Shown in pieces: positions 901 to 42,485 of a stretch of 64,000 nt of DNA. The position numbers and the translations under genes are program-made. How positions within the stretch are numbered: position 1 is the stretch's first letter; each line of letters opens with the position of its first letter. This DNA is from Prolixibacteraceae bacterium (GTDB lineage: Bacteria; Bacteroidota; Bacteroidia; Bacteroidales; Prolixibacteraceae). The notes below the pieces were generated by a model. The model ran no database searches, was not told the origin of the DNA, and saw only the letters and a list, made by a program, of their open reading frames with translations. The stretch is taken from positions 1 to 64,000 of the forward strand of contig JAFLKN010000033.1 in the NCBI GenBank assembly GCA_019163175.1, given 5' to 3'.

Positions 901-902
901 AG

Positions 903-2992: not shown

Positions 2993-3014
2993 AAAAAATT
3001 TCTTAACCCTGAAT

Positions 3015-3854: not shown

Positions 3855-3908
3855 GTCTTCCGTTTTTTGTGTTTTCTGAACTAATTCATTATTGTGGAGG
3901 CGAACGAA

Positions 3909-14737: not shown

Positions 14738-14749
14738 TTCGATTGATTT

Positions 14750-16072: not shown

Positions 16073-16115
16073 ACTTTTTGGTTTAATACTAGATTTGGTA
16101 TCGCGTCTGCACTAA

Positions 16116-16928: not shown

Positions 16929-16934
16929 GATTTT

Positions 16935-18098
16935 CTAGTTAATCTGTTCTTCTTTCGAGTGGATAAGAATTTGCCTTTTTGCTAATTCGTTGAAAAATAT
17001 CTCGGGGTCGAATACAAACTCAGGGAATAATGCTCCTTCTCCTTTGTATTTACCTTGAGCAATAAGCTGTGCAGCAATTCCCATAGGTATTCCTACATTT
17101 CGGGTATATGCACGTAAACCTGCCCAATCGGAAATTGAGCCATCCGATGCAGGATGCGTGTGCGTTAAAGTGTGCCTGACCAACTGACCGTTTTTAATTC
17201 CTTCCACCTCAACATGCAGTGAATAGCCATACAATTCGGTCGTTTTCCCTTTATCCGACTTTTGAAGGTATTCGCCGATTGCTTCCATGATTCCAAATTC
17301 GTGTCCGTTCAGTGAAATCCGGGTGTTATTAAAAAAGCCATAGTTATAAAGGGTTTTTATGAGTTCCATATTTTCCTTAGGCCAGGTTCCGCGAACCTCA
17401 ATCAGATCAACTTCTTTGGGCGCAAGATATTTGGCTAAAGTGAAGGTTTCTGAATGCGGAATAATATATTGAATACTTTTTCCGTAAGGTTGTGGTAATT
17501 CAATTTCGCGAGGTCGGGCAAAAGGAGGAACCTGAATGAAATTGCCGTTTTCAAATACTGTTCTCCCAGGTAATTGGGGATCGTATTCGTAAATAGTTGT
17601 TTCGGTTATTGAACCTGAAAAAGCGATGGGCCGGTAGGCTCCATGACTTACCCTCACGGAATTTACTTTTTCCATCTGATCACAGGCATAAACGGCCATC
17701 ATATTTGTTGTTCCGGGAGTCATACCGAAACCAGGAACCATTATTTTCCCATGTGATTTAAATACTTCGCTGAAATTGTATTCCTCCCCAAAGCCATTGA
17801 GATTAATTCCATGACAGCCCGCATGGGCAATACATTCGGTCGATGCTGCGTTCAGTGAAATCGTTGTGCCATCAATAACCAAATCATATTCAGAAAGCAG
17901 GGCAATAGATTCCAGCTTGTTGTTTACATCAATGTAAGCATAATCAACCTTGGGATGATTTAGCCATTCAGCGGTTTCTTTTGCTGCGGTCAAATTGATA
18001 TCGCCAATCGTCAGTTTTTTAAAATCGCCAAATTGGACTATGTCAAGTGCCGATTCTCTGCATATTTTACCAGTACCACCAAGAGCAAAAATTTTCAT
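16935..18098 (-). CDS. Saccharopine-dehydrogenase-like NAD(P)-dependent oxidoreductase in the phosphonate operon
   Basis: 387 aa. N-terminal Rossmann fold with dinucleotide loop LGGTGKICRESALDI (about 6-20) and an acidic strand end (TIGDINLTAAKET), followed by the saccharopine-DH catalytic-like domain (GFGMTPGTTNMMAVYACDQ). The family covers saccharopine, carboxynorspermidine and related amino-acid dehydrogenases, so the substrate cannot be named. It is first in a four-gene operon with phnX 6 bp downstream, which suggests an amine- or amino-acid-linked step of aminophosphonate use. No known phosphonate pathway enzyme belongs to this family as far as I know. A terminator-like hairpin precedes it. 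Confidence 0.75.
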   Translation of the reverse strand: MKIFALGGTGKICRESALDIVQFGDFKKLTIGDINLTAAKETAEWLNHPKVDYAYIDVNNKLESIALLSEYDLVIDGTTISLNAASTECIAHAGCHGINLNGFGEEYNFSEVFKSHGKIMVPGFGMTPGTTNMMAVYACDQMEKVNSVRVSHGAYRPIAFSGSITETTIYEYDPQLPGRTVFENGNFIQVPPFARPREIELPQPYGKSIQYIIPHSETFTLAKYLAPKEVDLIEVRGTWPKENMELIKTLYNYGFFNNTRISLNGHEFGIMEAIGEYLQKSDKGKTTELYGYSLHVEVEGIKNGQLVRHTLTHTHPASDGSISDWAGLRAYTRNVGIPMGIAAQLIAQGKYKGEGALFPEFVFDPEIFFNELAKRQILIHSKEEQIN

Positions 18099-18149
18099 TA
18101 TACTTCTGTTTTATAAGGAAAAAAGTCATTCAATCTTAAAAATTACACT

Positions 18150-18184
18150 AAAACCCTGACAGCGAACACTGTCAGGGTTTTTAA
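18150..18184. terminator. Strong hairpin between susD and the saccharopine-like gene
   Basis: AAACCCTGACAG (18151-18162) pairs perfectly with CTGTCAGGGTTT (18169-18180) around CGAACA and is followed by a T-run in the plus direction and preceded by A/T-rich sequence in the minus direction. It probably ends or attenuates susCD transcription, so the phnX-phnW operon may be expressed partly on its own. Confidence 0.85.
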
Positions 18185-18208
18185 AACTGGGGGTATATAA
18201 GATGCTGT

Positions 18209-19699
18209 TTATTTAATGATCCACATTTCCGAATTGATGTCGTCGGTTTCGGCGCCAAACTGATTTTTCAATGCTGCCTTGTAATTATCAGCATTAGTTG
18301 TTCTTTCAGAACTTGGGTATTGCCAGCGTTTGGCAATTCGTCCGCTGTTGGCTGTACCAGCGCCGGTAAGGAATGTTGGCACGCCTGTTCTGCGGTAGTT
18401 GTTGTATGCTTCCCATCCCGAATTCTGGAAAAATGCCAGATATTTTTGAGTCAGAATCTGAGTTAATGCTGTAGCCGAAGTGGTGCTTAATTTCACAATG
18501 CTTTGTGCATAATAAGTGCTCCATTTGGTTTCTACATCGGTTACTCCATGGAAAGTCCATGAGGCTTTTATTCCTTTCGTGTAATAATCTTCTGCATTTC
18601 CGGCAACCCAACCACGATTAATAGCTTCTGCCATATTGAAACACAATTCGGAATAGCCAACCTGAATACAAGGTTCTCCCAGATATGAACTGTAGTATTT
18701 ACTTTTACTGATAGGCGAATATTCACCGTTCAACATTTTGGTTGACATATCATCGAGACTTTCACCTGAACTGGCTCCAACATAAGCTTCATAGTCGGCC
18801 GCAGTTAGCCCTGCTTTAATTTTGGCGAGAGCCGGATCGGCAACAATGAAAGTACGTGGATCTTTCAGTGATGCCAACGTATTCAGATAGGTTGCCGCCA
18901 TGTTGTTTCGAGTGGCTGTTTGCCCGTAGTTATCCTGATTGAGTGGGTATTTGTCAGTCGAACTGTTGTAGGTAAATTTCAGGTTATCATCAAGCGAAGA
19001 CATTACCGGATACTTGGTTGGATTGTTTACTATAGCGGCAAACAAAGCCTTAATATTAAGATCTGCATCTGCTTCTTTTTTGCTTAAACTAATCAAAACA
19101 CGCAGTTTGTAGGTATTCACCACTTTTTGCCATTTATTCAGATCGTTGTTGAGCATGAAATCGCCTGTAAGTGTACGATCGCCGCTGTTAATAATTGTCT
19201 GAAGTTCGGTGTTTGACTCTTCGAGCCAGGTTAGGGCCTGCTTAAATACCGCTTTTTGAGTATCATATTTTGGGGTAGTATTTTCTAGGCTTTTCAATGC
19301 ATCAGTCATTGGTACATCGCCGAGTTTCATACTCATATCGACAAAAAAGTAGGCTTTGAAAAATTTACCCAAAGCTGAATAGGCATTGATATCAGCCAAA
19401 CCAATCCGTTTGGCTTCCGAAATCATTTGGTTAACGTTTTTCAGCTGAGTATAGTTGAAACTCATGGTTGTCCAGTCGTATTCCTGATCGTCGTAATACG
19501 CATAGTTACTGCAATAAAATTGGTTCCAGCGCATTTCGTCGTTCCAGGGAGAATAGTAGGTGTTATAAAGAACATTGGTGAAAACCAGCGATGGGTGTAC
19601 ATTTCCGGGACGATTGGTATCTTTTTCCAATTCTTCGAATTTCTGGCATGACGACAATGCTACTGCCAGTACCATCATGAATATGATTATTTTTTTCAT
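18209..19699 (-). CDS. SusD/RagB-like outer-membrane lipoprotein
   Basis: Surface substrate-binding lipoprotein that works as the lid of the SusC transporter. 496 aa with a lipoprotein signal (lipobox LSSC, Cys18). It belongs to the shorter SusD-like branch with conserved NRPGNVHPSLVF and a helical TPR-like core. It lies 32 bp after susC, so they form a pair. SusCD pairs usually import glycans or peptides; this one lies inside an aminophosphonate catabolic cluster, so I infer that the ligand is a phosphonate-bearing glycan, lipid fragment or oligomer. Confidence 0.9.
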   Translation of the reverse strand: MKKIIIFMMVLAVALSSCQKFEELEKDTNRPGNVHPSLVFTNVLYNTYYSPWNDEMRWNQFYCSNYAYYDDQEYDWTTMSFNYTQLKNVNQMISEAKRIGLADINAYSALGKFFKAYFFVDMSMKLGDVPMTDALKSLENTTPKYDTQKAVFKQALTWLEESNTELQTIINSGDRTLTGDFMLNNDLNKWQKVVNTYKLRVLISLSKKEADADLNIKALFAAIVNNPTKYPVMSSLDDNLKFTYNSSTDKYPLNQDNYGQTATRNNMAATYLNTLASLKDPRTFIVADPALAKIKAGLTAADYEAYVGASSGESLDDMSTKMLNGEYSPISKSKYYSSYLGEPCIQVGYSELCFNMAEAINRGWVAGNAEDYYTKGIKASWTFHGVTDVETKWSTYYAQSIVKLSTTSATALTQILTQKYLAFFQNSGWEAYNNYRRTGVPTFLTGAGTANSGRIAKRWQYPSSERTTNADNYKAALKNQFGAETDDINSEMWIIK

Positions 19700-19731
19700 T
19701 TCTGTATGATTAAAATGATTTATGATTTTGA

Positions 19732-22700
19732 TTAGAAAGTGATATTCAGGTTAAACCCAAACCGTCTGGTCGTTGGGGTTTGTAGTCCCGACGAACCGTT
19801 CGTTCCAACATATTGCTCAATGTCGATATCGCTTCTTTCGGCAAAATATAACAGGTTACGGCCTACAAACGAGATATTGGCCTGCTTGATAAAGGTTTTT
19901 TGCAGAAACTTTTGCGGAAGATTGTAAGTCAATACCACTTCGCGAAGTTTCACAAACGTGCGGCTGATGGCATAAGCCGAATTAGTACCGTAAACGCGGC
20001 TAATGTAATCTTGCAGGAAGGTAGGCGTTGCGTTTGGCGCGTATTGTAATTTATCGTAGTTGGTAACGTTTCCGTCAACATCATAAACAATGGCTACTCC
20101 ATTACTTACTTTAACACCATCGCCAATGTATGATTTAATTCCTTTGGTATCGTTTATTCTGGCTTCGCCCATTTCGCCCAGTATAGTATTGATATGACGG
20201 CCTCCTTGATAAGTTTTTTGCTCCACATAGTCGAGGATTGTTCCGCCAAACCGGCCATCGAACTGAAATTTAAGGCTTACATTTTTGTATGAAAGCGTGT
20301 TGTTAATGGCTCCGGCCCAATCGGAATTGGCATTGCCAAGATATCGAGGAACCGAATTTCTGATCGGACGTCCACTAGCATCGTTAATTAACTGGCCATC
20401 GGTAGTGCGGACAAAGTCAGACCCGTACATTTTGTCCATGCGGTCGCCTACCTTAAGGTAGATATTCAGTTTTTCAACTCCGGGATAAATTTCTTTCAGG
20501 TATCGTTGATTGGTTGAGAAGTTAGCCGAAATGTCCCAGCTAAATCCATTGATGTTGTGCACCGGTGAACCTGAAACATTGATTTCGACACCTTTTCTCT
20601 GAACTTTAATCGCATTCACGAGAGCCGATGAATATCCGGTCGATTCTGAAATTGGCAATGAGTAGATTTTAGGGCCATCGATGCTCGAAAAATAAGTCAC
20701 ATCGAAGCGGAGTTTGTTTTCGAAAAGGCCAACATCTGTACCCACTTCCCAAGCCGAGCTTGATTCTGGTTTCAGCTCAGGATTCGTAATGGTGTTGGTA
20801 AAGGCGGCGGCTGGTTTTCCCTGGATCAAGCCAGTGGAATATGATGCAGAGTTCTGATATGAAGGGCCATCGTAGGGTGAATAATAGTTGCCACCATAAC
20901 CAGGAACCCACAATTGGCCAATTGTGCTTGATGTTAAAGCGCCACCGACTTTAGCATACGAACCCCTGACTTTCCATGATTTAACGTATGGGATGGTAAC
21001 CAATTTTGACATCTCGATACTGGTTGAAACCGAAGGATAGAAATACGTATTGTGGCTGGTTGGAAGTGTCGAGTTTTTATCAGCACGGCCAGTTAGTGAT
21101 AGAGTCAAAAAATCGTCGTAAGTAAGGTCGGCAGTGGCATAAGCACTCAACACTTGCATCGGAGCATAAAAGTTGTACGATTTAACTGGATTTTTAGAGT
21201 TATTTAGGTTATACCATCCCGGAACATTCATGTAATCAGTTGTAGCATAACTGCTTCTAAACGAGTATGAGCGAATGTTTCCCCCGGCTGTAGCATGCAA
21301 ACTAAGTTTTGGCACCACATAGCGGTCGTACGACAAAAGCACGTCGGTATTGTTTTCAAACAGGTTACGTTTGTCTTCGCGGTAATCTCCTTCGCCAGCT
21401 TCGCGGCCATAAGGGTGTGCCGAATAAGGAAGCTTTTCAGACCTGAACAAATCGTAGGTCGATATAGCAGTACGAGCCTGCAAACTTATGTAATTGTTGA
21501 ATTTGTATGATATGGTTGCATTTCCGGTAAGGTCATTTTTGTAATGCCCGCGCAACCATTCATACGACATGAAGTAAGGGTTGTGGTAACGTTGGTATTC
21601 GGCGTATATTGACTGTACGCCTTCTTTCCCTGGTTGCCAGTATTTGCGCATATCATCAATGTTCCAATCGGCACCACCCCATGCAATGATGTTGTAAATT
21701 ATACTGTTTGGACCATATTGAACATCAGGAACATTGGGGGTGTATTGGCGGCTGTATGCCATGTTTGAACTAATGCGAAGCTTCTTTGAAATATTATATC
21801 CACCGCTTAAATTAAAGTTAGTGATATTGAGCTTGGTGTTAGGGACAATACCTTTCTGGTAACTGTGCGAGGCAGAGAACCGAAGATCGTATTTGTCGCC
21901 ACTTGCTGAAAGAGCAAGACTATTGTTCGAAAGGAGTCCGTTTTCAAGAAAACGTTTTAGGTTATCTTTACCGCGTGCAACATAAGGTGTTGGCTTTATA
22001 TTGCCTTCATAGGTTTTACCGTCAGCAAACGTAGTAGTGTACTTTGTTCCTGGTGTATATTGCCCATCATACTGAGGTATTAGTTGTCCTTCAAACCTTG
22101 GGCCCCAAACGTCGTAGTCGCCATCATTCAAACCGTTTCCCTTTCCGTCAGCAAATGCATATTTCCCGTGGTCGCCGGGGCCATATTCATCCTGAACTTC
22201 AGGAATGGCCAAAAACCCACTTTCTACCATAGAGCTTGAATTAAAGTCAACAGTAAACCCGCGTTTATCAGTGGTTCCGCGTTTGGTAGTAATCTGGATG
22301 GCACCGTATTGACCCCTCGATCCATATAATGCAGCAGCAGTAGGGCCTTTTAGCACGGTATAGCTTTCAATATCATCGGGGTTGATGTTCCAGGTATCAG
22401 TCTGCACCGGAACCCCATCGACCACATAAAGTGGAGTAGCTCCACGAAGTAAAACCGAAGGTGCGCCAAGTATTTCGGAAGAAGCGCCAATAGTCAATCC
22501 AGCTATTTTCCCGGTAAGTGAATTAATGGCATTGGGTTCTCTGGCTTTTACCAGTTCGGCGCCTTTCACGTCCTGAACAGCGAAGCCGATGGTGCTTTTC
22601 ACCTTTTCGATTCCAAGTGCAGTAACAATAACTTCTTTAATCTCCTGTTTCGAATCTTCTAAAATAATGGTGATAACTTTTTGATTACCAACAGAAACTT

Positions 22701-22938
22701 CAACAGTTTCGAACCCAATATAAGAAGCTACCAAAATGTCCTTCGGCTCAGCCTGTAAAACAAAATGCCCCTTATCATCCGATAGGGTTCCAATGGTGGT
22801 TCCTTTAACCAGAATGGTTGCACTTGGCAAGCTTTCTCCATTGCTGGTCTTAACCGTTCCTTCAATATTTGCCTTTTGGGCAAATACAGTTGCCCCAATC
22901 AGGAGGAACGTGATTAGTAAAAAGATTTGTTTTTGCAT
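19732..22938 (-). CDS. SusC/RagA-family TonB-linked outer membrane transporter
   Basis: 1068 aa. Signal peptide about 1-20, CarboxypepD_reg-like domain (about 24-105), plug (about 110-225) containing LVKAREPNAINSLTGKIAGL and NPDDIESYTVLKGPTAAALYGSRG (both SusC hallmarks), and a large barrel ending RRFGFNLNITF with terminal Phe. It forms the transport half of the SusCD pair. The unknown 179-aa exported protein is 112 bp upstream and pbfA beyond it, on the same strand. The substrate is inferred from the phosphonate context only. Confidence 0.93.
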   Translation of the reverse strand: MQKQIFLLITFLLIGATVFAQKANIEGTVKTSNGESLPSATILVKGTTIGTLSDDKGHFVLQAEPKDILVASYIGFETVEVSVGNQKVITIILEDSKQEIKEVIVTALGIEKVKSTIGFAVQDVKGAELVKAREPNAINSLTGKIAGLTIGASSEILGAPSVLLRGATPLYVVDGVPVQTDTWNINPDDIESYTVLKGPTAAALYGSRGQYGAIQITTKRGTTDKRGFTVDFNSSSMVESGFLAIPEVQDEYGPGDHGKYAFADGKGNGLNDGDYDVWGPRFEGQLIPQYDGQYTPGTKYTTTFADGKTYEGNIKPTPYVARGKDNLKRFLENGLLSNNSLALSASGDKYDLRFSASHSYQKGIVPNTKLNITNFNLSGGYNISKKLRISSNMAYSRQYTPNVPDVQYGPNSIIYNIIAWGGADWNIDDMRKYWQPGKEGVQSIYAEYQRYHNPYFMSYEWLRGHYKNDLTGNATISYKFNNYISLQARTAISTYDLFRSEKLPYSAHPYGREAGEGDYREDKRNLFENNTDVLLSYDRYVVPKLSLHATAGGNIRSYSFRSSYATTDYMNVPGWYNLNNSKNPVKSYNFYAPMQVLSAYATADLTYDDFLTLSLTGRADKNSTLPTSHNTYFYPSVSTSIEMSKLVTIPYVKSWKVRGSYAKVGGALTSSTIGQLWVPGYGGNYYSPYDGPSYQNSASYSTGLIQGKPAAAFTNTITNPELKPESSSAWEVGTDVGLFENKLRFDVTYFSSIDGPKIYSLPISESTGYSSALVNAIKVQRKGVEINVSGSPVHNINGFSWDISANFSTNQRYLKEIYPGVEKLNIYLKVGDRMDKMYGSDFVRTTDGQLINDASGRPIRNSVPRYLGNANSDWAGAINNTLSYKNVSLKFQFDGRFGGTILDYVEQKTYQGGRHINTILGEMGEARINDTKGIKSYIGDGVKVSNGVAIVYDVDGNVTNYDKLQYAPNATPTFLQDYISRVYGTNSAYAISRTFVKLREVVLTYNLPQKFLQKTFIKQANISFVGRNLLYFAERSDIDIEQYVGTNGSSGLQTPTTRRFGFNLNITF

Positions 22939-23050
22939 TTTAATGTGGTTAGAATTAATACTTTATTATGGACATAGAAATAGCTGTTTACAGCATTTGG
23001 CGCTGCAAATACAAGTAAAATCAATAATTATTTTTTTTGGGGGAGGGAAC

Positions 23051-23590
23051 TTAAAACACCAGCTTAACTCGTTTGGTAAACAAGTTTGTCAGTGAATTTA
23101 CGTCGTTGGTTTCGGCAATTGCTTTTTCAAACCCTTCAGTTTCAGCTGTAAGTACGTTGAAGGCAACATCTAAAACTTTGTTGAAATCTGATGATGCTGT
23201 TTCAGCAGAAATCTCTCCTTTTTTTACCGATTTTTTCAGGTGTTTTTCAATTTTTCTTACTGCATCATATATTGCAGGTTTACGAATCATGGTGCGGGTT
23301 TGCGGATTTCCCGGAACAATAGGTACTGCGTAGGTGTATTTTGATTCGAGCAAATACAATTTTTCGGAGACCGATTGCCCAAATGCATGTTCTCCGATCA
23401 TATCTTTGGATACTGAATTCAAATCAATGTCAGCAGACGATGCCCTGAACTCAAAGATTGGTAAGGTCGGAGCATTCGATTTTGCCGTTTTTGTGTCACT
23501 TGGGGAAGTCATTGCCAGTGCTTCCTGCGCTGTTATTTTCCCTACACTCAGTAGAAAAAAGATGGTTATTAAAGATAAAATTGCTTTCAT
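23051..23590 (-). CDS. Exported protein of unknown function in the phosphonate locus
   Basis: 179 aa from ATG at 23590 (a TTG 6 bp upstream is in frame but less likely). Signal peptide about 1-20 (ITAQ). The mature part begins with a polar stretch, then FEFRASSADIDLNSVSKD, YTYAVPIVPGNPQTRTMIRKPAIYDAVRKIEKHLKK, and a helical, Lys/Glu-rich C-terminal half. I recognise no domain. It is located between the SusCD pair and pbfA, all on one strand. A weak PhoB-box-like array lies upstream. Possibly a periplasmic helper of this locus; no function can be assigned. Confidence 0.7.
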   Translation of the reverse strand: MKAILSLITIFFLLSVGKITAQEALAMTSPSDTKTAKSNAPTLPIFEFRASSADIDLNSVSKDMIGEHAFGQSVSEKLYLLESKYTYAVPIVPGNPQTRTMIRKPAIYDAVRKIEKHLKKSVKKGEISAETASSDFNKVLDVAFNVLTAETEGFEKAIAETNDVNSLTNLFTKRVKLVF

Positions 23591-23612: not shown

Positions 23613-23669
23613 CAAAATTGTTTTATAGTTATTTAACTTCGATTGAATAGAAATTAATCTTTGATTAAA
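23613..23669 (-). promoter_or_regulatory. Weak candidate PhoB box upstream of the exported unknown protein
   Basis: On the minus strand, TTTAA (23669), ATTAA (23658), TTCAA (23647) and TTAAA (23636) fall at 11-bp steps, followed after 11 nt by CAATTTTG (23620-23613), five of six matches to TAnnTTTG. The geometry fits the other arrays, but no half-site is the strong TGTAA and the region is very AT-rich, so chance is a real alternative. Confidence 0.3.
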
Positions 23670-30664: not shown

Positions 30665-31738
30665 TTATTCGCTTATAATTTTTTGCCAGAAACTTTTCTT
30701 CCCCACAATATCCTCGGTCTTGTAAAACTGAAAAGTCTTATCAGTTGACATCGCCACAAAAATTCCTTGCGGGAAGGTGGAATTCAATGGCATATTCAAG
30801 ATATCTGAGCCGTCGCTTTCAATGGTTTTACTTTGAACAATTCTGACCAATCGATGATCGAAAGGATTGCTTTTAGTTCCTTGTCGTGTGAACAATTGAA
30901 ATTTATTGGCTTGCTGATCCGAAAGAATAATGTATCCATTTTTATCGCTTTCCCTATATATTGAGAGCCCTTCATGATCACTGGTTATTCCTGTTGTTGC
31001 AAATAGCGACAGTTCTTTGTTTCCCTTGTCGGCATCAGCGTAATATTGCCTTATACCAATCGTTTCATCAGAATAATATATATATCCTTGCTCATCGTCA
31101 ACTACAATGGCTTCGATTTCCTTTTTGCCACTATATTTTCCGAAAGTGCGGACTTTGATTCCTGAAACCGAAGCTCCAGTATCAACAAGCCGGTATTGAT
31201 AAATGTATCCATCGGCTGGTCCTGATTTACGACCAACAAAAGCAAAAATACTTTTACTTTTATCCTTATATAAGGAAATTCCCATGGGAGAACGAAGCGA
31301 ATCGTCCTCAAAAACAGGAATGCCACCGCCATCAATAAATTTGCAATCGGGTAGTGAAATGACCCGAAGCATATCTCTTCCACGTTCAGTAAAAGCAGCA
31401 ATATCAATGGTTTTACCCTGAAATTGAAACCCGTATTCGATGTCGATGTTATTCGGGCGTTTCAGATTGGTGATGCTTAAGGTGGTATCCAATTTTCCTT
31501 CAAGGTTAAATACAAAAATACCTCCGGTTGAATCGCCTTTATCAGTTCCAAGAATCAGGCTCTTTTCAGGATTTGAGCTGTTATACCAAATAGCAGGATC
31601 GTCGGTATCGTTCGGGGTTTTGTCGGTAATAATTAAGGGATTTGCGGATGTTTCTATTACCTTTTTATTTTCTGAATTGCAGGCAATAATAATTGCCAAT
31701 AATCCAAAAACTGTTATTATTTGACTTGGTTTCTTCAT
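30665..31738 (-). CDS. Beta-propeller phytase (3-phytase), lipoprotein
   Basis: Hydrolyses phosphate from phytate (inositol hexakisphosphate). 357 aa with a lipoprotein signal, Cys20 (IIIACN). Hallmarks of beta-propeller phytases: TPNDTDDPAIWYN at the start of the propeller, LKRPNNIDIEYGF, EIEAIVVDDEQGYIYYSDE and DHEGLSIYRE, which carry the calcium/phosphate-binding acids. It is last in the operon TonB receptor, beta-helix lipoprotein, phytase. Lipid anchoring keeps it on the cell envelope, so released phosphate or lower inositol phosphates stay near the receptor. Confidence 0.9.
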   Translation of the reverse strand: MKKPSQIITVFGLLAIIIACNSENKKVIETSANPLIITDKTPNDTDDPAIWYNSSNPEKSLILGTDKGDSTGGIFVFNLEGKLDTTLSITNLKRPNNIDIEYGFQFQGKTIDIAAFTERGRDMLRVISLPDCKFIDGGGIPVFEDDSLRSPMGISLYKDKSKSIFAFVGRKSGPADGYIYQYRLVDTGASVSGIKVRTFGKYSGKKEIEAIVVDDEQGYIYYSDETIGIRQYYADADKGNKELSLFATTGITSDHEGLSIYRESDKNGYIILSDQQANKFQLFTRQGTKSNPFDHRLVRIVQSKTIESDGSDILNMPLNSTFPQGIFVAMSTDKTFQFYKTEDIVGKKSFWQKIISE

Positions 31739-31817
31739 GAAGAGGTCTTAAAATTTGAAGATGCATCCTGAGAAAGGACACATCTTCAAATTTAGGATTT
31801 ATATTAAACTGTGATGT

Positions 31818-33074
31818 TTATTTTGTACCCAAAGCTCCAAAATGTACAGCAGGAGCGGGTGATTTGTAGGTTACCCCATTAATGGCAATCCCCGTTGTAG
31901 AATAGTTGCGGACAAAATCGGTTTTAGCACCAGTTAAGGCTGGCGAACCGGCTTTTAAATGGAAGTCCCAACTGGCACTGAAAGTCGCATTATTCGGGTC
32001 GGTTGCGAGGGTATAATTCTCGAACATCGGATTTTTGTCGCCCGGAGTAGCGCCAGCAATATCGTGAGTTCCACGAACAACATCTTTTACAGTAGGAAGA
32101 TAACTATCAAGCCCTTCCTGGGTATGAGCATAATAGAAAGAATAGTCGTAGGTTGAACGGGTATCGCCCGGTTCCTTGGCATTGTTTTTAACTGCAAATC
32201 GGCAGTTAACCTGCAGGTTGTTCCAAATTTCGGCATAAACACCAGCTTCGAGCCAGATACCGCCACCTTTTACTGTTGGCCTTCTCCATCCGGCATTTAC
32301 AATGGTATTGTTGTACCCAACCACATGGCACTGAGGAGTTCTGTCGCCCGAGTTTGATAATTTCAGTGCGTTGGTATTTGGACTAAAAACCATATTAAAA
32401 GCAACATCGGCAATACAACCAGCTTTCAGGTTAATGGCATCGCCACCAGTTTCGCCTTGTGTGTAGATTTTATTGTTGGCAACAATGATTTTTCCCCCTT
32501 CAAGATAAAAGCAATCTTCGCCAAGGTTGTTGAAAGTTGAATTCAGAATAACCACTTTACCATCGACATTATTCTTAAAATTCACAGCAGGCAGCCCTTC
32601 GCCGGCAGCAGCTTTAAAGAAACCAGCTTTTACCGATGGCGATTCTTCAGTGGTTACATAACCTGTATATTCCATGTGTACATATTCCATCAACAGTTCT
32701 TTTGCGGTTGGGCCACAAAGGATTCCACCCCAAAGACGCGGAAAATTGCCAGCCTTTCTGAATTTTTCAGGAACTGTAATGGTGATTGGGCTTGCAGCAG
32801 TTCCTTTGCAATACAAGTTCCCGTAAACAAGAATTTCCTGCCCTATCGAAGTGTCGTTCATTAAAACAGTAACGCCTTCTTCAATTGTAAGCGATTTTCC
32901 TTCAGGAATGACTAAATGACCTTTTACAGTTATCGTCGAACCTTTTTCCCAGGTACCGGATACATCGCCTCCGTCAAGGGTTTGGTCAACTGGTTTTGGA
33001 TCAACTTCATCTTTGCATGCCGTTAAAACAGCAATTGCCAACATAAGGCACAGAAATACTTTTTTCATTTTCAT
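31818..33074 (-). CDS. Parallel beta-helix lipoprotein of the phytase operon
   Basis: 418 aa; lipoprotein signal with Cys20 (LTAC). The body has right-handed beta-helix rungs: KGHLVIPEGKSLTIEEGVTVLM, YGNLYCKGTAASPITIT and LKAGCIADVAFNMVFSPNTNALKLSNSG. The opening rungs resemble those of the T9SS protein at 9519 (NAGATLTIEPGTIIRG, KINAIGTEAKPIVFT), so both belong to one group although one is lipid-anchored and the other T9SS-exported. It sits between a TonB receptor (37 bp gap) and phytase (79 bp gap). Function unknown; a surface binding or docking partner of the receptor is inferred. Confidence 0.78.
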   Translation of the reverse strand: MKMKKVFLCLMLAIAVLTACKDEVDPKPVDQTLDGGDVSGTWEKGSTITVKGHLVIPEGKSLTIEEGVTVLMNDTSIGQEILVYGNLYCKGTAASPITITVPEKFRKAGNFPRLWGGILCGPTAKELLMEYVHMEYTGYVTTEESPSVKAGFFKAAAGEGLPAVNFKNNVDGKVVILNSTFNNLGEDCFYLEGGKIIVANNKIYTQGETGGDAINLKAGCIADVAFNMVFSPNTNALKLSNSGDRTPQCHVVGYNNTIVNAGWRRPTVKGGGIWLEAGVYAEIWNNLQVNCRFAVKNNAKEPGDTRSTYDYSFYYAHTQEGLDSYLPTVKDVVRGTHDIAGATPGDKNPMFENYTLATDPNNATFSASWDFHLKAGSPALTGAKTDFVRNYSTTGIAINGVTYKSPAPAVHFGALGTK

Positions 33075-33111
33075 GGGTTTATAAATTAATGGGTTATAAT
33101 TATTTGGTTTT

Positions 33112-35898
33112 TTACAATTTATACCTGATTCCGATCAAATATGACGACATAGAATATTCGTCCCTGACCAGTGTATTTTTATCATCATCGCCGTGAAGAG
33201 GAACATCATTGTTCAATGGGTTCATTTTTTTGATATACACTTTCACGTGGCTGTTGAGCAGGTTGTGCGCTTTTACAAACAGGCTGATGCCATGGTTGAG
33301 TTTCTTTTCGGCTGAAGCGTCCAGTTGCCAGAAGCCTTTTTGCCATAAATCGTTGTCGATGTAGCGTGATACCGTATAAATGCGGTCGCCGGTGTATGAG
33401 AATGCCAGTTGCGAACTAAACCCGTTGTTGGATCCTTTATACAGCAGCGAGATGTTGCCCACATGAGCCGATTGCCCAAATAGGGGACGGGTTTGTGATA
33501 CATATTCGGTAATGTCGTTCCCATTCGCATCTTTGCCTCTCGATAGCTTTTCTGAGGTAATTTCAGATCGTGTCAGAGTGTAATTCCCCTTGACCCCCCA
33601 TTCGCGATAGTATTTTATCACATCGAGTTCAATCCCGTAATTTGTTGCTTTGTCGGAATTTATTGGGGCGTAAACAATTTGCTGGCTTACGTTCATAAAC
33701 TTGTCGAAAGCAAACTCGATGGGATCTTTCAGGCGCTTGTAAAATGTTCCGACCATCACCTGATCCAACTGACCCGGGAAAAATTCCCATCGAAGGTCGA
33801 AGTTATCGGCAACGGCATGTCTCAGGTTTTTATTTCCGGCGGTAACAGGTTCTTCGCTGGCATCAATGTAAGGCACGATTTCCTGAAACCCAGGTTTGTT
33901 GATTGCCCGGTAATACGACAACCTGAAGTTCTGATTTTGAAATGGGGAATATTTCAGGTGAATACTGGGCAAAACATCGGTATATTTCTGGCTTCCGTCC
34001 GGATTTGGTTCGCCAATCGGGTATTTCATGGAATAGCCCTGTTCTGTATTTTCGACCCTTACGCCGCCACATACCTGAATTTTCTGAATATCAACACGAA
34101 ACATGCTATATGCCGCCATTACCGTTTCGAACGCATCGTAATTTTCTCCAACGGCCACTGTTCCGCGTGGGTTATAAACCTGCCAGATAATGCCGTCATA
34201 AGTATTCCAATCCACGCCTTTTTCAGAATAAAACGAGGTGGTGTTATCGCTTTTCCTAACAATGGCATTCAGTGTATATTTATTGTAAAAGCTGGTGCGG
34301 TTTTTCTCGCGGTACATTGCTCCTGAAATAATTTCGGCTTTCGAACCAAATACGGTAGGTGTATATGTAAAATTTAAATATCCGGCCTTGTCTTCGTCAG
34401 AATTACGCCTCCAGATACGATCACTTCCATCAAAATCGATGTATTGCCTTACAGGTTTGAAACTTTCCAGCCCATTCCCGTATTTTACGGTTGCCTCATC
34501 GGGTGTTTGGTTAGAAGCCTTTGAATAAACCGCCGACCAATTGGCCGAAAGCATTTCGAAAATCCTGTGATCGCCCTGTAAAGTGGTAGTGAAAAGGCTC
34601 TGCGAATTAAATCGAAACCGTGAAGAATGGCTGCGGTTCAGGTTTCCATTGTCAGGGTCGTAACTTACTGCCAGATCGGTACTTTGCACTTCGCGCAACT
34701 GGTTGGTTGCAAAATCGAGGTATGCCGCGTACAACTGAATTCGATGCCTGTCATTGAACTGGTAATCAAACTTATTGTGAATGCCATAATTGCGTTTGTT
34801 TTCGTTATATATCCGTTCCTGCATCGAGATAAGCACCGGAAGATTTTTTCCGTCGCGCGAGAGATCGTCTTTAAAATACAAACTGTTTTCGCCGGTATAG
34901 GTATTCTGGTAACTACCTGAAAGTATCCATCCCAGCCTTTTTTTGAAGAAGCGGTTGCCAAGGGTTAAATTGCCATACGCATTAATGGGTACATCAACTG
35001 TTTTGATGATTAGGTTTTGATTGGGGAAATCGGATGGTACAGTGCGGTATCCGTGCTCATTTCTTTCGTAAGGCGATTTCAGATTATTGGTTTTACTGCT
35101 GAAGGTTTGAAAATCGTTTTCACTGAAAAAATGGCTGTAGCCCGCCGAAACATTAGCCTGCACCAGCAGGTTATCCGGGGCGTTTTTCATAACCAGATTA
35201 ACCGCCCCGGCAACGGCATCACCTTCCATGTTTGGGGTAAGCGTTTTTGATACTTCAATGCGATCAACCATATCCGATGGGAACATATCGAGTGAAACGT
35301 AACGGTGTTTGTTATGCGTGCTTGGGATTTTGATGCCGTTTACCAGTGTGTAGTTGTAGCGTTTGTCCATTCCCCGAAGCAGTGCATATTGACCGGAACC
35401 CGACGAGCTTTTATCTAAAGTTACCCCCGACATTCGCTGCAAAGCATTGGCCACATTCAAATCAGGAGATAACTCGATGGTTTTGGCGCTTACCACATTT
35501 ATCACTTGATTGGAATTTCTTTCCGAACTTCGGGCGCTGATGTCGGTACTTTTATCGCTTCGGCCAACCACGTTCACTTCATCCAATTCGGTGTATTGTG
35601 GTATTAACGTAAAATCGGAATTTTGCAATTCGGATTCTGTAACTGAAATTTTACGTTCGATGGTTTGATAGCTGATGTAGCTGCACTGAATTGTATAATT
35701 ACCTTTTGGAATATTTTTAATAACGAAAGAGCCATCCAGTCCTGAAATGGTTCCCTGTTTCAACTCCTTAATGTAAATGGTCGCCCCCACTAGTTCCTCT
35801 CTCGTTTTGGCATCATTGACCGTGCCCCTAATGTTGGCTGAAAAGATAAAATTTGAAAATGACAAGAAAACAATACAAATAATTAACCCACGATACAT
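33112..35898 (-). CDS. TonB-dependent receptor of the phytase operon
   Basis: 928 aa: signal peptide about 1-20, CarboxypepD_reg-like domain (about 22-105), plug (about 120-245; NALQRMSGVTLDKSSSGSGQ, RGMDKRYNYTLVNGIKIPS, SLDMFPSDMVDRIEVSKTL) and barrel ending SYLIGIRYKL. Receptor-phytase pairing is known in Bacteroidota, so uptake of phytate breakdown products or phytate itself is the best guess. It is first in the operon; a PhoB-box-like array with a full TACCTTTG element lies directly upstream. Confidence 0.9.
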   Translation of the reverse strand: MYRGLIICIVFLSFSNFIFSANIRGTVNDAKTREELVGATIYIKELKQGTISGLDGSFVIKNIPKGNYTIQCSYISYQTIERKISVTESELQNSDFTLIPQYTELDEVNVVGRSDKSTDISARSSERNSNQVINVVSAKTIELSPDLNVANALQRMSGVTLDKSSSGSGQYALLRGMDKRYNYTLVNGIKIPSTHNKHRYVSLDMFPSDMVDRIEVSKTLTPNMEGDAVAGAVNLVMKNAPDNLLVQANVSAGYSHFFSENDFQTFSSKTNNLKSPYERNEHGYRTVPSDFPNQNLIIKTVDVPINAYGNLTLGNRFFKKRLGWILSGSYQNTYTGENSLYFKDDLSRDGKNLPVLISMQERIYNENKRNYGIHNKFDYQFNDRHRIQLYAAYLDFATNQLREVQSTDLAVSYDPDNGNLNRSHSSRFRFNSQSLFTTTLQGDHRIFEMLSANWSAVYSKASNQTPDEATVKYGNGLESFKPVRQYIDFDGSDRIWRRNSDEDKAGYLNFTYTPTVFGSKAEIISGAMYREKNRTSFYNKYTLNAIVRKSDNTTSFYSEKGVDWNTYDGIIWQVYNPRGTVAVGENYDAFETVMAAYSMFRVDIQKIQVCGGVRVENTEQGYSMKYPIGEPNPDGSQKYTDVLPSIHLKYSPFQNQNFRLSYYRAINKPGFQEIVPYIDASEEPVTAGNKNLRHAVADNFDLRWEFFPGQLDQVMVGTFYKRLKDPIEFAFDKFMNVSQQIVYAPINSDKATNYGIELDVIKYYREWGVKGNYTLTRSEITSEKLSRGKDANGNDITEYVSQTRPLFGQSAHVGNISLLYKGSNNGFSSQLAFSYTGDRIYTVSRYIDNDLWQKGFWQLDASAEKKLNHGISLFVKAHNLLNSHVKVYIKKMNPLNNDVPLHGDDDKNTLVRDEYSMSSYLIGIRYKL

Positions 35899-35916: not shown

Positions 35917-35973
35917 CAAAGGTACCGGGGGCAAATTAAATGGGTGTTAAAGATCGAACACACTTAGATTAAT
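35917..35973 (-). promoter_or_regulatory. Candidate PhoB box and promoter of the receptor-phytase operon
   Basis: Minus strand: ATTAA (35973), TGTGT (35962, imperfect), TTTAA (35951) and TTTAA (35940) at 11-bp steps, then exactly 11 nt, then TACCTTTG (35924-35917), a perfect TAnnTTTG. I predicted this position from the geometry at the other loci and then found it, which makes it a small independent test. The leader to the ATG is short (about 12 nt past the expected start). Confidence 0.55.
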
Positions 35974-36965: not shown

Positions 36966-37823
36966 TTATAAAAAACTTGCCACTTTCATTTCCTCCAGGA
37001 TCGATCGGTACACCTGATTCTTATCCGGAATATAAAGTTCGTCACCTGGAGATTCTGATTCTTCATCTTCTGTCGAGTCAGTCTTATAATAATTCAGGCT
37101 CCAGATTCCATCAATACATTCGGCTGCCGAAAAATGTTCGACCCAATCGCCGCAGTTTATATACCTGACTTGACCCTGCTCCGTAACAATGGTTTTATCA
37201 ACCGGAATATGTGTATGTCCGCAAATGACCAGATCAACATTTTTGCTGAGGGCTGCGTTTGCAATCGCCTTCTCAAAGTTTGTCAATACCTTCTTTTCCT
37301 TTATTATGCGGTCTTTCATCGATTTATAGAGAATCATATCTTCACCTCCCAAAGCCCTTAGAATTCTGTTCAGCATATTATTGAATGCAGTGAGGAAGCC
37401 GTAAGCTGCGGCACCGAATTTAGCCAGCCACGGCGAATGATGTATAATATTGTCGAAAACATCGCCATGAAAAATCCATACTTTTTGGCAATTTATAGTC
37501 AGTTCCAACTGGTTTACAATGCTGAAATTACCTAGCCTGGTGTTGTTAAACTTGCGGAAAACATCATCGTGATTTCCTGTAATATAAACCACTGATACAC
37601 CTCTTTCAATCATTTTAACCAGCTGACGAATAACTTTTAGGTGCGATTTAGGAAAATAGTTTCGGCTAAACCGCCATGAATCGATAATGTCGCCATTCAG
37701 AACCAGCGTTTTAGGTTGTATCGATTTTAAATATTTAAGAAGGGGTTTCGCTTTGCTGGCCAGGGTCGCCAGATGTACGTCTGAAATAACTGAGATGTCT
37801 GGTTTCCGGATAACTTCCTCCAT
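36966..37823 (-). CDS. plcP: PlcP-type metallophosphoesterase (COG2908), probable phospholipase C for lipid remodelling
   Basis: 285 aa calcineurin-like enzyme. Metal motifs: ISDVHLA (about 13-19), NGDIIDSWRFSRNYFPKSH, ITGNHDDVFRKF, IFHGDVFD and CGHTHIPV, ending in YINCGDWVEHFSA. The SWRFSRNY and NCGDWVE segments are those of PlcP, which splits phosphate headgroups from phospholipids in phosphate-starved bacteria, rather than of true LpxH, which it distantly resembles. It is followed 8 bp later by a glycosyltransferase and preceded by a PhoB-box-like array. LpxH-like UDP-diacylglucosamine hydrolase is the alternative reading. Confidence 0.7.
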   Translation of the reverse strand: MEEVIRKPDISVISDVHLATLASKAKPLLKYLKSIQPKTLVLNGDIIDSWRFSRNYFPKSHLKVIRQLVKMIERGVSVVYITGNHDDVFRKFNNTRLGNFSIVNQLELTINCQKVWIFHGDVFDNIIHHSPWLAKFGAAAYGFLTAFNNMLNRILRALGGEDMILYKSMKDRIIKEKKVLTNFEKAIANAALSKNVDLVICGHTHIPVDKTIVTEQGQVRYINCGDWVEHFSAAECIDGIWSLNYYKTDSTEDEESESPGDELYIPDKNQVYRSILEEMKVASFL

Positions 37824-37846: not shown

Positions 37847-37904
37847 CGCAATTACACTTAATTCCATTACACGACGATTAATGTTTAGTGAAATTTTAGT
37901 TAAA
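37847..37904 (-). promoter_or_regulatory. Candidate PhoB box upstream of plcP
   Basis: Minus strand: TTTAA (37904), TTTCA (37893, imperfect), ATTAA (37882) and TGTAA (37871) at 11-bp steps. After 12 nt comes TAATTGCG (37854-37847), four of six matches to TAnnTTTG. It is weaker than the neighbouring divergent array at 38021, but the register and orientation are right. Confidence 0.4.
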
Positions 37905-38020: not shown

Positions 38021-38077
38021 TGTAACAAAACATTAATTGATGCTTAATCCTACTTTAATCCTTCAGCCGTATTTTTG
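38021..38077 (+). promoter_or_regulatory. Candidate PhoB box and promoter of the small secreted protein at 38116
   Basis: TGTAA (38021), ATTAA (38032), CTTAA (38043) and TTTAA (38054) at exact 11-bp steps, then 11 nt, then TATTTTTG (38070-38077), a perfect -7 element. The first 11 bases (TGTAACAAAAC) are identical to those of the array at 13107, although the coding regions have diverged, which argues for functional conservation of the site. Confidence 0.62.
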
Positions 38078-39021: not shown

Positions 39022-39078
39022 ATTAATGAAGTTGTAATAGGTATGCAATAAGTTTGTAATTATTTAGCATGACTTTTA
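39022..39078 (+). promoter_or_regulatory. Candidate autoregulatory PhoB box of phoU2-phoB-phoR
   Basis: ATTAA (39022), TGTAA (39033), TGCAA (39044) and TGTAA (39055) at exact 11-bp steps, then 11 nt, then GACTTTTA (39071-39078), four of six matches to TAnnTTTG. It would leave a leader of roughly 165 nt before the ATG at 39249. Autoregulation of phoB-phoR through a Pho box is standard in other bacteria. Confidence 0.55.
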
Positions 39079-39248: not shown

Positions 39249-39968
39249 ATGTCTCAAAAAAAACATGAAGCGATTGATGACATTCTATCTGACTATGAGA
39301 AACTTGCGAATATGGTACTCAATCAGCTTGATGAGATTAAAAAATTGATTTTAGCACCGGAAGGACTGGCAGCAACAGGTCGCCTTCAGGTTTTGACAGA
39401 CAATGAGAGCAAAATAAATAAACTTGAAGTAAAGATCAGTGAAAAGATCATCAACTCCATAGCTCTTTATCAGCCGGTAGCCTCAGAAATTCGTAACTTG
39501 ATAGCCTGTTATCGCATTGTTATTAGTCTCGAACGCATTGGAGATTTGTCTATAAGTGTTGCAAAACAATTAAGCCGAATCGAAAATCAGGAGGTTTATG
39601 CCAGCCTTTCAGGATTTATTTCAAAAATGATGGATTTAAGTATTGAGATGTCAAGACGTTCGATGCTGTCATTTATTAATCGGGATATGGAACTTGCCAT
39701 GTGGACCATCAAATCGGAATCAATTGTTGATGAGTTTAACCACAAGATGCTGAAAAAGGTTGCCGAAAGGGCTTACTTTGTTGCCGAAGACAAAAACTTG
39801 CTGGTCAGCTTTATCAACATCAAAGAGATGGTGTCTAATATCGAACGGATTTCTGATCATGCAGCAAATATTGCTGAAGCTTCTATTTACGCTTTTGAAG
39901 GAAAAGATATCCGGCATCACCGGAAGAGAGAATTAGACGAAAAATCAAAATTATCAGATCATGAATAG
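39249..39968 (+). CDS. phoU: PhoU-domain protein (second PhoU)
   Basis: 239 aa, all-helical, two PhoU-like three-helix bundles. Landmarks: LANMVLNQLDEIKKLI in helix 1, LEVKISEKIINSIALYQPVASEIRNL (PhoU pattern E..I...A...P.A...R), YRIVISLERIGDLSISVAKQ and NIERISDHAANIAEASIYAFEG, the last two being the conserved E-R-I-x-D metal-binding repeats. PhoU restrains PhoR signalling when phosphate is plentiful. Its stop overlaps phoB by 8 bp. It is separate from the phoU start seen behind pstB, so this strain carries two. Confidence 0.88.
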   Translation: MSQKKHEAIDDILSDYEKLANMVLNQLDEIKKLILAPEGLAATGRLQVLTDNESKINKLEVKISEKIINSIALYQPVASEIRNLIACYRIVISLERIGDLSISVAKQLSRIENQEVYASLSGFISKMMDLSIEMSRRSMLSFINRDMELAMWTIKSESIVDEFNHKMLKKVAERAYFVAEDKNLLVSFINIKEMVSNIERISDHAANIAEASIYAFEGKDIRHHRKRELDEKSKLSDHE

Positions 39969-40638
39969 TTATAAAATATTGGTGGTTGACGACGAAAAGG
40001 ATCTTTGTGAAATTCTTCAGTTCAATTTAATCAGCGAAGGTTTTGATATTGAAGTCGCCTATTCCGGCGAAGAAGCGCTAACCAAACCTATTGACCAATT
40101 CGACCTGTTGCTGCTTGATGTAATGATGGGTGGCATGTCTGGTTTTAAACTAGCCGATAAAATAAGAAAAGAATTGGAGCTATCGGTTCCAATTATTTTC
40201 CTTACCGCACGCGAAACCGAAAACGATATGTTGACCGGGTTTAATGTTGGTGCTGATGATTATTTGTCGAAGCCATTTTCAATCAAAGAACTGGTTGCCC
40301 GTATTAAAGCGGTACTGCGCCGGGGTAAAAATGTTGAGATCAAGCCAAAGGTTATTGCCATTGATGGAATGGAACTCGATTTGAATAGAAAATCGGTGAC
40401 AATTAACAAAGAGTCTGTTTTGCTTACGCGCAAAGAGTTCGAGATATTGGTTATGCTGGTATCGAACAAAGGGAAATACCTTAGTCGACAGGAAATCCTT
40501 GATCGGATTTGGAGTGATGATGTAATTGTTACCGAGCGAAATGTAGATGTTAACATTGCCCGTCTTAGAAAAAAGATTGGTGATTTCGGCAATTGCATTA
40601 AAGGACGCTCCGGATACGGATACAGTTTCGAGAACTAG
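39961..40638 (+). CDS. phoB: PhoB-like response regulator (OmpR family)
   Basis: 225 aa. Receiver domain about 4-120 with acidic pocket VVDDEKD (D10, D11), phosphoacceptor D53 in LLLLDVMMGG, switch Thr in FLTARE and lysine in DDYLSKPFS. The C-terminal winged helix (about 130-224) has the usual LTRKEFEILVMLVSNKGKYLSRQEIL and VDVNIARLRKKIG. It is sandwiched between phoU2 (8-bp overlap) and a PhoR-type kinase, so phosphate control is well supported. It is the likely reader of the 11-bp direct repeats found in this window. Confidence 0.9.
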   Translation: MNSYKILVVDDEKDLCEILQFNLISEGFDIEVAYSGEEALTKPIDQFDLLLLDVMMGGMSGFKLADKIRKELELSVPIIFLTARETENDMLTGFNVGADDYLSKPFSIKELVARIKAVLRRGKNVEIKPKVIAIDGMELDLNRKSVTINKESVLLTRKEFEILVMLVSNKGKYLSRQEILDRIWSDDVIVTERNVDVNIARLRKKIGDFGNCIKGRSGYGYSFEN

Positions 40639-40712
40639 AAAACTAAAATATCGAGGAATCAGTTTCTTGTAATTTTCAATTTATTAACTTGATTCTTAAA
40701 TTCATATTAAAT

Positions 40713-42485
40713 ATGGTTGTACAAAGAACTTTCCGACACAGAATATTTATCAACTTCTTTGTGGTGTTTTCTATATTCACCTTGGCAGTTCTGGTTTACC
40801 AGTACGATCGTGAAAAAAGTTACCGGACTGGTCAACTCGAAAATACACTGGATAATATTTCGGAATTTACCCACCAATATATTGAGCATAAACGAATTTT
40901 TGAATCAAGTGATTTTAAGTCGCTCGATACGCTTAAAAGCCTTTTGCCTATAGCGAACACCCGATTAACTATAGTCGATATGACGGGAAAAGTTCTATAT
41001 GACAGCTTTGTTGCCGACGTTCAGAATATTGAAAACCATCTTGGTCGTCCTGAAGTGCAAAAGGCACTCTATTCCGGAAAAGGCTCAAGCATTCGCTTAT
41101 CAAATACTACCAATCAAAAGTTTTACTATTACGCCAAGAATTGCAAAAAATATTTCGTTCGTACTGCTGCCGTTTACAACGTTGACATCATCAAATTCCT
41201 GAAAACGGAACGTATATTTTTGGTTTTCATCGTCTTTCTGTTTGGTCTAATGTGGGTTTTACTGCATTATACCACCCGCAGATTGAGTGAGTTCATTGTC
41301 AAACTAAAAGACTTTGCACTTAAAGCCGGTCAGAATGAGGATATCTCGAAGATGGATAGCAATTTCCAGGACAACGAACTGGGCGTAATCCGCCGACAGA
41401 TCATCCAGATATACGATAACCTGAAAACGGCCAAAGACGATTTGACTAGTGAAAAGGAGAAATTATATGGTCATCTTCAGGTTCTGAAAGAAGGTATCTC
41501 TATTTTTTCGGCCGAGAAGCATAAAATACTGGCAAACAGTCATTTTATACAATTCATCAACATGATCTCGGATAAGTCGACTATTTCGGCAGAACATATC
41601 TTTTCGATTCCTGAATTCAGTAAAGTTGTAGACTTTATCGAGCAGTATCAACTTCAGCAGATACAGACCCCAAACAAAGAACTTCCGCAAATTGAATATA
41701 CCATTGAGAAAAGCGAGAAATTCTTTCATATCCGATGTATCATTTTCCTGGATAAAAGCTTTGAAGTACTGATTAGCGATGTGACTCGTCCGGAAAAACA
41801 GCGGTTACTGAAACAGCAGCTTACCTCTAACATTGCCCACGAGCTAAAAACACCATTATCATCGATCAAAGGATACCTCGAAACCATTTTAAACAACCCG
41901 AATATTCCTGGCGACAAGCAAAAATATTTTCTGGAGAAGGCTTTTGCGCAGTCAGAAAGATTGACCGATTTGCTCAACGATATCTCGTTGCTCAACAATA
42001 TTGAAGATGCCGGGGGCTTATTCGAGTTTAAATCGTTAAAGCTAAGTCCGGTAATCCGTGATGTGATTGAAAACCTGAAGAGCCGACTTACCGCCAGGAA
42101 TATGGAGTGTAATATTGATGTGGGGAACGATGTTGTTGTAAATGGGAATGAATCGTTGCTCTTCTCCGTTTTTCAAAATCTAATCGAAAATTCTGTAAAT
42201 TATGCCGGAAATGATTCCCATATATCAATAAGGAAATACCTGGAAGATGATAAGTTTTACTATTTCCAGTATTCCGATTCGGGTGCAGGAATTCCAGAGG
42301 AACATTTGACACGCATTTTTGAGCGTTTCTATAGGGTTGATTATGGACGCTCACGCGAAAATGGTGGAACTGGGCTCGGTCTTTCGATCGTAAAAAATGC
42401 CGTTCTGCTGCATAAGGGCGAAATCTCAGTTAGAAATAGGGCCGAAGGAGGCTTGGAATTTTTATTTTCTCTTTCAAAAAAATAA
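40713..42485 (+). CDS. phoR: PhoR-like sensor histidine kinase
   Basis: 590 aa from ATG at 40713 (an in-frame TTG lies 24 bp upstream). Helix 1 about 10-27, an extracytoplasmic sensor region of about 130 residues, helix 2 at about 160-180 (IFLVFIVFLFGLMWVLLHY), a HAMP-like/PAS-like linker, then the kinase core. It has an H-box NIAHELKTPLSSIKGY (His at about 376), N-box NLIENSVNYA, G1 DSGAGIPEEH, F-box IFERFYRVD and G2 GGTGLGLSIV. It phosphorylates PhoB when phosphate is low. The periplasmic region is longer than in E. coli PhoR, as usual for this phylum. Confidence 0.9.
   Translation: MVVQRTFRHRIFINFFVVFSIFTLAVLVYQYDREKSYRTGQLENTLDNISEFTHQYIEHKRIFESSDFKSLDTLKSLLPIANTRLTIVDMTGKVLYDSFVADVQNIENHLGRPEVQKALYSGKGSSIRLSNTTNQKFYYYAKNCKKYFVRTAAVYNVDIIKFLKTERIFLVFIVFLFGLMWVLLHYTTRRLSEFIVKLKDFALKAGQNEDISKMDSNFQDNELGVIRRQIIQIYDNLKTAKDDLTSEKEKLYGHLQVLKEGISIFSAEKHKILANSHFIQFINMISDKSTISAEHIFSIPEFSKVVDFIEQYQLQQIQTPNKELPQIEYTIEKSEKFFHIRCIIFLDKSFEVLISDVTRPEKQRLLKQQLTSNIAHELKTPLSSIKGYLETILNNPNIPGDKQKYFLEKAFAQSERLTDLLNDISLLNNIEDAGGLFEFKSLKLSPVIRDVIENLKSRLTARNMECNIDVGNDVVVNGNESLLFSVFQNLIENSVNYAGNDSHISIRKYLEDDKFYYFQYSDSGAGIPEEHLTRIFERFYRVDYGRSRENGGTGLGLSIVKNAVLLHKGEISVRNRAEGGLEFLFSLSKK

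Follow-up and report, generated by a model that had tools for sequence, protein, structure and literature searches.

Bacteroidota dominate gut, marine and plant-root communities, and their TonB receptors, PusCD, phytases and PlcP are ecologically important. Among the regulators of phosphate-starvation genes, Bacillus subtilis PhoP reads TTAACA-like hexamer repeats with an 11-bp period, often four of them, which replace the -35 element of a Firmicute promoter, and Escherichia coli PhoB holds RNA polymerase via region 4 of sigma70. The E. coli Pho box is built of 11-nt direct repeat units, bound head-to-tail by PhoB, at a distance of ~10 bp upstream of the -10 element (PMC4415409, PMC1906773). 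In cyanobacteria, the SphR site consists of 8-bp CTTAACCT units, three or more in number and joined by linkers of 3 bp, giving an 11-bp period and a TTAAC core (PMC1906773). For Riemerella anatipestifer, a DAP-seq study gives TTTAACA as the most conserved nucleotides of the PhoP motif, which its authors liken to the ArcA motif; among the bound regions were those preceding phoPR and a TonB receptor, the in-vitro peaks numbered 583 but regulated genes were few, and the regulator was linked to virulence and redox and not to a Pho regulon (PMC9603813). In view of SphR and Riemerella PhoP, the original prediction was incomplete in naming TGTCA as what PhoB binds in other phyla. The PHO regulon of Flavobacterium johnsoniae has been charted by Pi depletion (Lidbury et al., PMC8115612) in an article whose main text holds no occurrence of "motif" or "promoter" and no analysis of either. 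The papers searched contained no study of a Bacteroidota Pho box, in agreement with the earlier statement that no described box of this phylum with such a four-site geometry was known to its author.

Here we describe a strict four-repeat code, 11 letters before the promoter core, through which phosphate-scavenging genes of the class Bacteroidia appear to be switched on. With the E. coli box it shares the 11-bp direct repeats just before the promoter core, but its own core is (T/G)TAA(C/T) and not CTGTCAT, its units number nearly always four as against at least two, and they precede the Bacteroidota -7 element TAnnTTTG instead of a sigma70 -10. Closest in sequence is the cyanobacterial box, which has the TTAAC core and the 11-bp period in common with our sites but consists of three repeats in another phylum at another type of promoter, whereas the sites described here read KTAAY, four times, without the following CCT. 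The PhoP/PhoR regulator of Riemerella is, like the present system, from the Bacteroidota, but its site is reported as one motif and not a four-repeat array with fixed spacing to a -7 element. The gene set agrees with the PHO regulon of F. johnsoniae, which comprises PhoBR, TonB receptors with pectate-lyase-like lipoproteins, phytase, PlcP and PusCD (PMC8115612). Either the TTAAC core or the 11-bp repeat is thus already known from the E. coli, cyanobacterial and Riemerella sites; what is new is that the repeats are strictly four, that they keep a fixed register with TAnnTTTG and that they are spread across the class.

Results

Box arrays precede phosphate genes in the window

The window is a stretch of 64,000 nt, ~1% of a Prolixibacteraceae genome of 5.92 Mb. 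It encodes PhoU (39249..39968, +; two stretches of PF01895, with the NCBIfam model phoU_full under its cut-off), the response regulator PhoB (39961..40638, +; equivalog NF053854, 321.7 bits against a cut-off of 270), which is the presumed reader of the boxes, and the sensor kinase PhoR (40689..42485, +; equivalog NF053855, 676 bits against a cut-off of 500). On the minus strand lie the genes of a Pst phosphate transporter with an ATPase, two permeases and two PstS (142..4748; TIGR02136), headed by a gene for an OprP-like outer-membrane protein (4781..6151) that was assigned by phmmer clustering with OprP-like proteins and hit no family in a Pfam scan on its own. The two PstS-like genes stand in tandem within this one operon (3015-4748).

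The box-array sites follow a common plan, with four NKTAAY elements at 11-bp steps followed by a -7 element whose register is fixed. All seven sites of the original prediction were found where it had placed them; the phytase is not directly preceded by one, as the site concerned stands before the TonB receptor at the head of its apparent operon. We ranked the window with a matrix trained solely on 62 class A sites (the classes are defined below) from outside the window genome; the seven sites took ranks 1, 2, 3, 4, 5, 7 and 10, where the genes behind the matches are independent but the box columns of the matrix are not fully so, because the pattern used for collecting was derived from the window.

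The top rank, with 35.9 bits, fell to the site at 6185..6241 (-), whose -7 element TACTTTG occupies 6185-6191; it is the candidate promoter of the pst operon, in which the 456-aa OprP-like gene comes first, and a like sequence occurs in several congeners. Rank 2 is held by 38021..38077 (+), with the boxes TGTAA-ATTAA-CTTAA-TTTAA at 11-bp steps, an 11-nt gap and the -7 element TATTTTTG at 38070-38077. This array, a perfect pattern match in the whole-genome scan and kept in orthologous promoters, is the candidate promoter of a small CarboxypepD_reg-like protein (38116-38463). A second small protein of this kind (13193-13552) has its candidate promoter at 13107..13163 (+; rank 5), again with TATTTTTG as -7 element (13156-13163) and kept in relatives. 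At 35917..35973 (-; rank 4) the second box is degenerate and the -7 element is TACCTTTG (35917-35924); the site is the candidate promoter of an apparent operon (30665..35898, -) of TonB receptor (33112-35898), pectate-lyase-like lipoprotein (31818-33074) and phytase (30665-31738), and is kept before orthologous TonB receptors in G009, G013 and G015. Another TonB receptor (6581-9457) lies behind the candidate promoter at 6446..6502 (+; rank 7), with a weaker third box and -7 element (ATTCCTTCG) and with the same site type in G011, G013, G016 and G019. The start at 6435 given for it earlier takes in one extra 11-bp step.

The array at 37848..37904 (-; rank 10) carries the -7 element TAATTGC (TACTTGC in congeners) and is the candidate promoter of genes for a PlcP-type metallophosphoesterase (36966..37823, -; PF00149/PF12850) and a glycosyltransferase. 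The weakest of the seven sites, 39022..39078 (+; rank 3), has a poor -7 element (TGACTTTTA), lies 170 nt upstream of phoU in phoU-phoB-phoR and lacks an orthologous site in the single relative examined; single weak sites such as this one could be chance products. An eighth site, absent from the original list, ranks 6 at 23613..23669 (-) and reads TTTAATC/ATTAATT/TTCAATC/GTTAAAT followed by AATTTTG, with a like sequence in the congener G020 (C14:50943). It lies ~25 nt upstream of the gene for a secreted 179-aa protein, which precedes a SusC/SusD pair and phosphonate-type genes. This apparent operon (13622..23590, -) holds, by Pfam, the secreted protein, SusC (19732-22938), SusD (18209-19699), a saccharopine dehydrogenase-like protein, a HAD hydrolase, an MFS protein and a class V aminotransferase; it looks like a phosphonate-use PUS locus, and its gene content would fit the use of aminoethylphosphonate.

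The arrays exceed expectation and are conserved in the genus

Every position was scored, out of 18, for its agreement with four TAA spaced 11 bp apart and a following TAnnTTTG. Four positions of the window reach at least 16/18, where dinucleotide shuffles average 0.1, and two reach at least 17/18, a score that none of 60 shuffles attained; the ten best-scoring positions include all seven sites. Shuffled sequence, which had been named as a check that could overturn the pattern, hence does not yield it. When the whole genome was scanned with up to 2 mismatches, four of the six matches fell inside the window. Two hits were excluded from the Pho set: G000 C1:364196, the only other match in the genome with 0 mismatches, has a multihaem cytochrome gene downstream, and G000 C37:46073 has no clear phosphate gene downstream.

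The box-array sites are conserved across the genus. Upstream of plcP, 17 congeneric species retain TTTAAt-caaac-ATTCAc-tgtat-ATTAAT-cgtaa-TGTAAT, in most cases with TACTTGC as the -7 element, 23-27 nt upstream of the start codon. Arrays are likewise retained at the pst, small-protein and TonB-receptor promoters of the relatives that carry them, and the lipoprotein and phytase genes inside their operon, which serve as an internal control, score at background in congeners.

The -7 element stands in fixed register after four boxes

Counted from the last TAA, the TTTG/TTGC part of the -7 element occupies +15 to +18 at nearly all sites, whereas its TA shifts between +11 and +12. This explains the apparent 12-nt gap described earlier at plcP; the TA of the pst site (TACTTTG) is shifted likewise. 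Of the four or five boxes originally described, four are borne out; a fifth box upstream of the array is not enriched in the 62 class A sites of other genomes. The same 62 sites show no TTG peak at the usual -33 distance, in keeping with the earlier remark that a -33 TTTG element was not seen at the sites checked, and the TTG 27-28 nt upstream is part of the box-2 spacer.

For the spacing test, four perfect boxes were searched alone without demanding a -7 element, which gave 54 non-repetitive arrays. In 17 of the 54, TTTG starts at +15 after the last TAA, and no other start position is seen in more than three; TAnnTTTG starts at +11 in 8/54 and elsewhere in at most one. The 11-nt gap thus emerges although the search did not demand it.

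The pattern recurs before phosphate genes across the class

We searched 395 genomes for KTAAY(N6KTAAY)x3-N11-W-NN-TTKS with at most 1 mismatch and without gene information, leaving G098 out of the count, as its 46 matches are tandem 11-bp repeats. The pattern gave 106 non-repetitive matches and its reversed form 10; a control with 12-bp spacing gave 28, of which ~15 lie in simple repeats, so that ~13 are non-repetitive. Only 86/395 genomes contain the strict pattern, implying that degenerate sites are common or that some lineages lack the code.

The first downstream genes of the sites listed outside the window genome (n=98) were clustered. They comprise 21 TonB receptors, 12 pectate-lyase-like lipoproteins, 12 OprP-like porins, 6 PhoB, 4 DUF47, 3 PstS, 2 PiT and 2 PlcP. 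Pfam and NCBIfam scans confirmed the main names, with the PhoB equivalog in 6 and PhoX in 1; four of the 12 OprP-like porins match Porin_O_P with E < 1e-5. Core phosphate genes make up 29/98, a binomial probability of ~1e-44 given a background of ~0.4%, which is our own estimate. The recurrence of phoB among the targets is what autoregulation would predict.

A second class of sites (class B, ~19) has TTTAAT boxes with a following C and the consensus tTTAAT..c.TTTTAATtY. Class B precedes genes for TolC-like proteins (L223, L246, L251, L254, L297-L300), SulP transporters (L241, L243, L244, L247, L256), HlyD proteins (L252, L255) and small receiver proteins (L273, L293). The two consensuses are TTAACATT/KTAAT for class A and TTTAATnC for class B. 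Eight class B members match the divalent-metal exporter model NF045679.

Boxes in Flavobacterium and the response to phosphate depletion

F. johnsoniae lies outside the scanned collection, and seven species of close relatives were fetched in its place; orthology to Fjoh genes is by gene order and not by sequence comparison. Across a 12-kb region, the clade repeats the gene order of Fjoh_0542 to 0546, namely OprP-PhoR-PhoB-TonB receptor-lipoprotein. Matrix matches fall in the promoters of OprP and the TonB receptor in 7/7 species and, more weakly, in the lipoprotein promoter in most. On Pi depletion, the TonB receptor Fjoh_0545 rose by a log2FC of 8.0 and the lipoprotein Fjoh_0546 by 9.9, and the OprP gene Fjoh_0542 was not induced (-1.3, n.s.; Lidbury et al., PMC8115612 Table 1). 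Boxes hence stand before the apparent orthologues of the induced Fjoh_0545/0546 and also of the uninduced Fjoh_0542, and together with the gene-order orthology this makes the link to the phosphate experiment good but not clean.

The best match of the clade (L375, reverse strand, ~2009-2066; also L376-L381) is the one that precedes the apparent orthologue of Fjoh_0542. The matrix scan found no site upstream of phoB in the clade, though Fjoh_0544 rose by 3.06, and the plcP promoter there has only two clear boxes, though Fjoh_4577 rose by 8.59 (PMC8115612). Two lipoprotein groups of the clade have no site. The strict pattern with 2 mismatches gave few matches in this clade, where the matrix did better, and PhoX (PF05787), used as an anchor in Flavobacterium, yielded one weak match only.

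Discussion

The features that mark a Pho box can be set against what the arrays contain. Instead of the minimum of two direct repeats at 11-bp spacing there are four; they lie just upstream of the -7 element, at an 11-nt gap and in the place of a -33 element of which no TTG peak is seen; phosphate-starvation genes and often phoB follow; and PhoB and PhoR are both encoded in the genome above their cut-offs. The original reading of the arrays as PhoB boxes is strengthened by the occurrence of the pattern elsewhere before phoB, pstS, oprP, PiT, DUF47, plcP and TonB receptor/lipoprotein genes and by the cognate PhoB/PhoR in the window. On this genomic evidence the arrays are very probably a real Pho box, and we consider it highly likely that they are PhoB operators, which would stand in for the -33 element in promoting Pho genes.

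In the mechanism we propose, the four N-K-T-A-A-Y half-sites, one per 11 bp or about one helical turn, would all be presented on the same side of the double helix. Four protomers of phosphorylated PhoB, each on its own repeat, would line up on them head-to-tail and through contact with the sigma factor would hold RNA polymerase at the TAnnTTTG -7 element over the missing -33. Low Pi would be the signal, and phosphate starvation would so activate phoB together with lipid remodelling and the uptake of phosphate and organophosphates. By analogy with E. coli PhoB (PMC4415409), the simplest model has a single protomer on every repeat and a sigma contact. The recognition helix as the cause of the box sequence was set aside, as these helices are too variable (VHIRRLR in E. 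coli, VNIARLR in the window and VHIRKLR in others).

Were the boxes read by one or more other regulators of the OmpR/PhoB family, the phosphate link would reflect partly overlapping regulons with a common 11-bp grammar. The identical four-box, fixed-register geometry of class B before TolC, SulP, HlyD and small receiver genes points this way: the search pattern itself imposed it on both classes, but TAnnTTTG at +11 also turns up in the class B arrays collected with no -7 element demanded. Geometry alone is therefore not PhoB-specific, and some sites could have an OmpR-family paralogue as their reader. Another pointer in this direction is a TTAAC array with five to six units that is found again in congeners and lies upstream of a cytochrome gene in G000. 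However, the two classes differ in consensus as well as in target genes, where the consensus is the independent part of the difference, as classes were assigned by downstream gene family; phoB is a recurrent target, as autoregulation predicts, and PhoB/PhoR are encoded among the targets. We regard another reader as improbable.

The uninduced OprP orthologue behind the best Flavobacterium site (PMC8115612 Table 1) could instead suggest that PhoB is a repressor or has a dual operator, its binding upstream of the -7 element blocking polymerase at some genes. This we hold to be very improbable, since apparent orthologues of other box-bearing genes (TonB receptor, lipoprotein, PlcP and phytase receptor) are strongly induced (PMC8115612), and the fixed 11-nt gap and absent -33 suit an activator that compensates for a missing element. 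Least credible, to the point of being negligible, is the reading that intergenic DNA, being AT-rich, is periodic here by chance and drew attention because the genes looked like phosphate genes. At 3 mismatches the pattern is indeed no commoner than its reversed control, so that looser matches are uninformative, and some genomes contain long tandem repeats of 11 bp that resemble the box; yet the shuffles, the reversed pattern, the 12-bp control, the footprint in the genus and the gene-blind recovery of phosphate genes refute chance for the set as a whole.

Taking the arrays as PhoB operators, phosphate-starvation genes, and so regulons, would become predictable from sequence across the class, uncultured genomes included, and many unnamed lipoproteins and TonB receptors could be assigned to phosphate scavenging. 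The arrays also suggest how a Bacteroidota activator compensates for the absent -33 element, and offer a promoter architecture ready for testing. The four-box geometry is probably general to OmpR/PhoB-family activators of the class, with the repeat sequence giving specificity. We give even odds to the stronger proposal that Bacteroidota have one promoter architecture for several such regulators, in which an obligatory four-repeat operator in fixed register replaces the -33 element and the repeat sequence alone selects the regulator, KTAAC/T for PhoB and TTTAATnC for a TolC/SulP regulator.

Two kinds of repeat were seen besides these sites. In one, a conserved array, TTAAC/GTAAA/CTAAA units recur five to six times with an 11-bp step (G000:C1:364173-364250, with like sites in G006, G008, G012, G013 and G017); in G000 it is followed by TAGCTTTG and, 76 nt on, by the multihaem cytochrome gene. 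Long tandem 11-bp repeats, for example (GTAACAAATAC)n and (GTAATACGATT)n, occur in G006 (C42, C76, C77), G017, G098 and G000:C2:76006-76077; as mimics of the box they inflate the counts of motif scans. They are possibly minisatellites; heptamer repeats with the unit TAACTGA, known from reports on Beggiatoaceae and certain Bacteroidetes (PMC4679880), may be compared with them.
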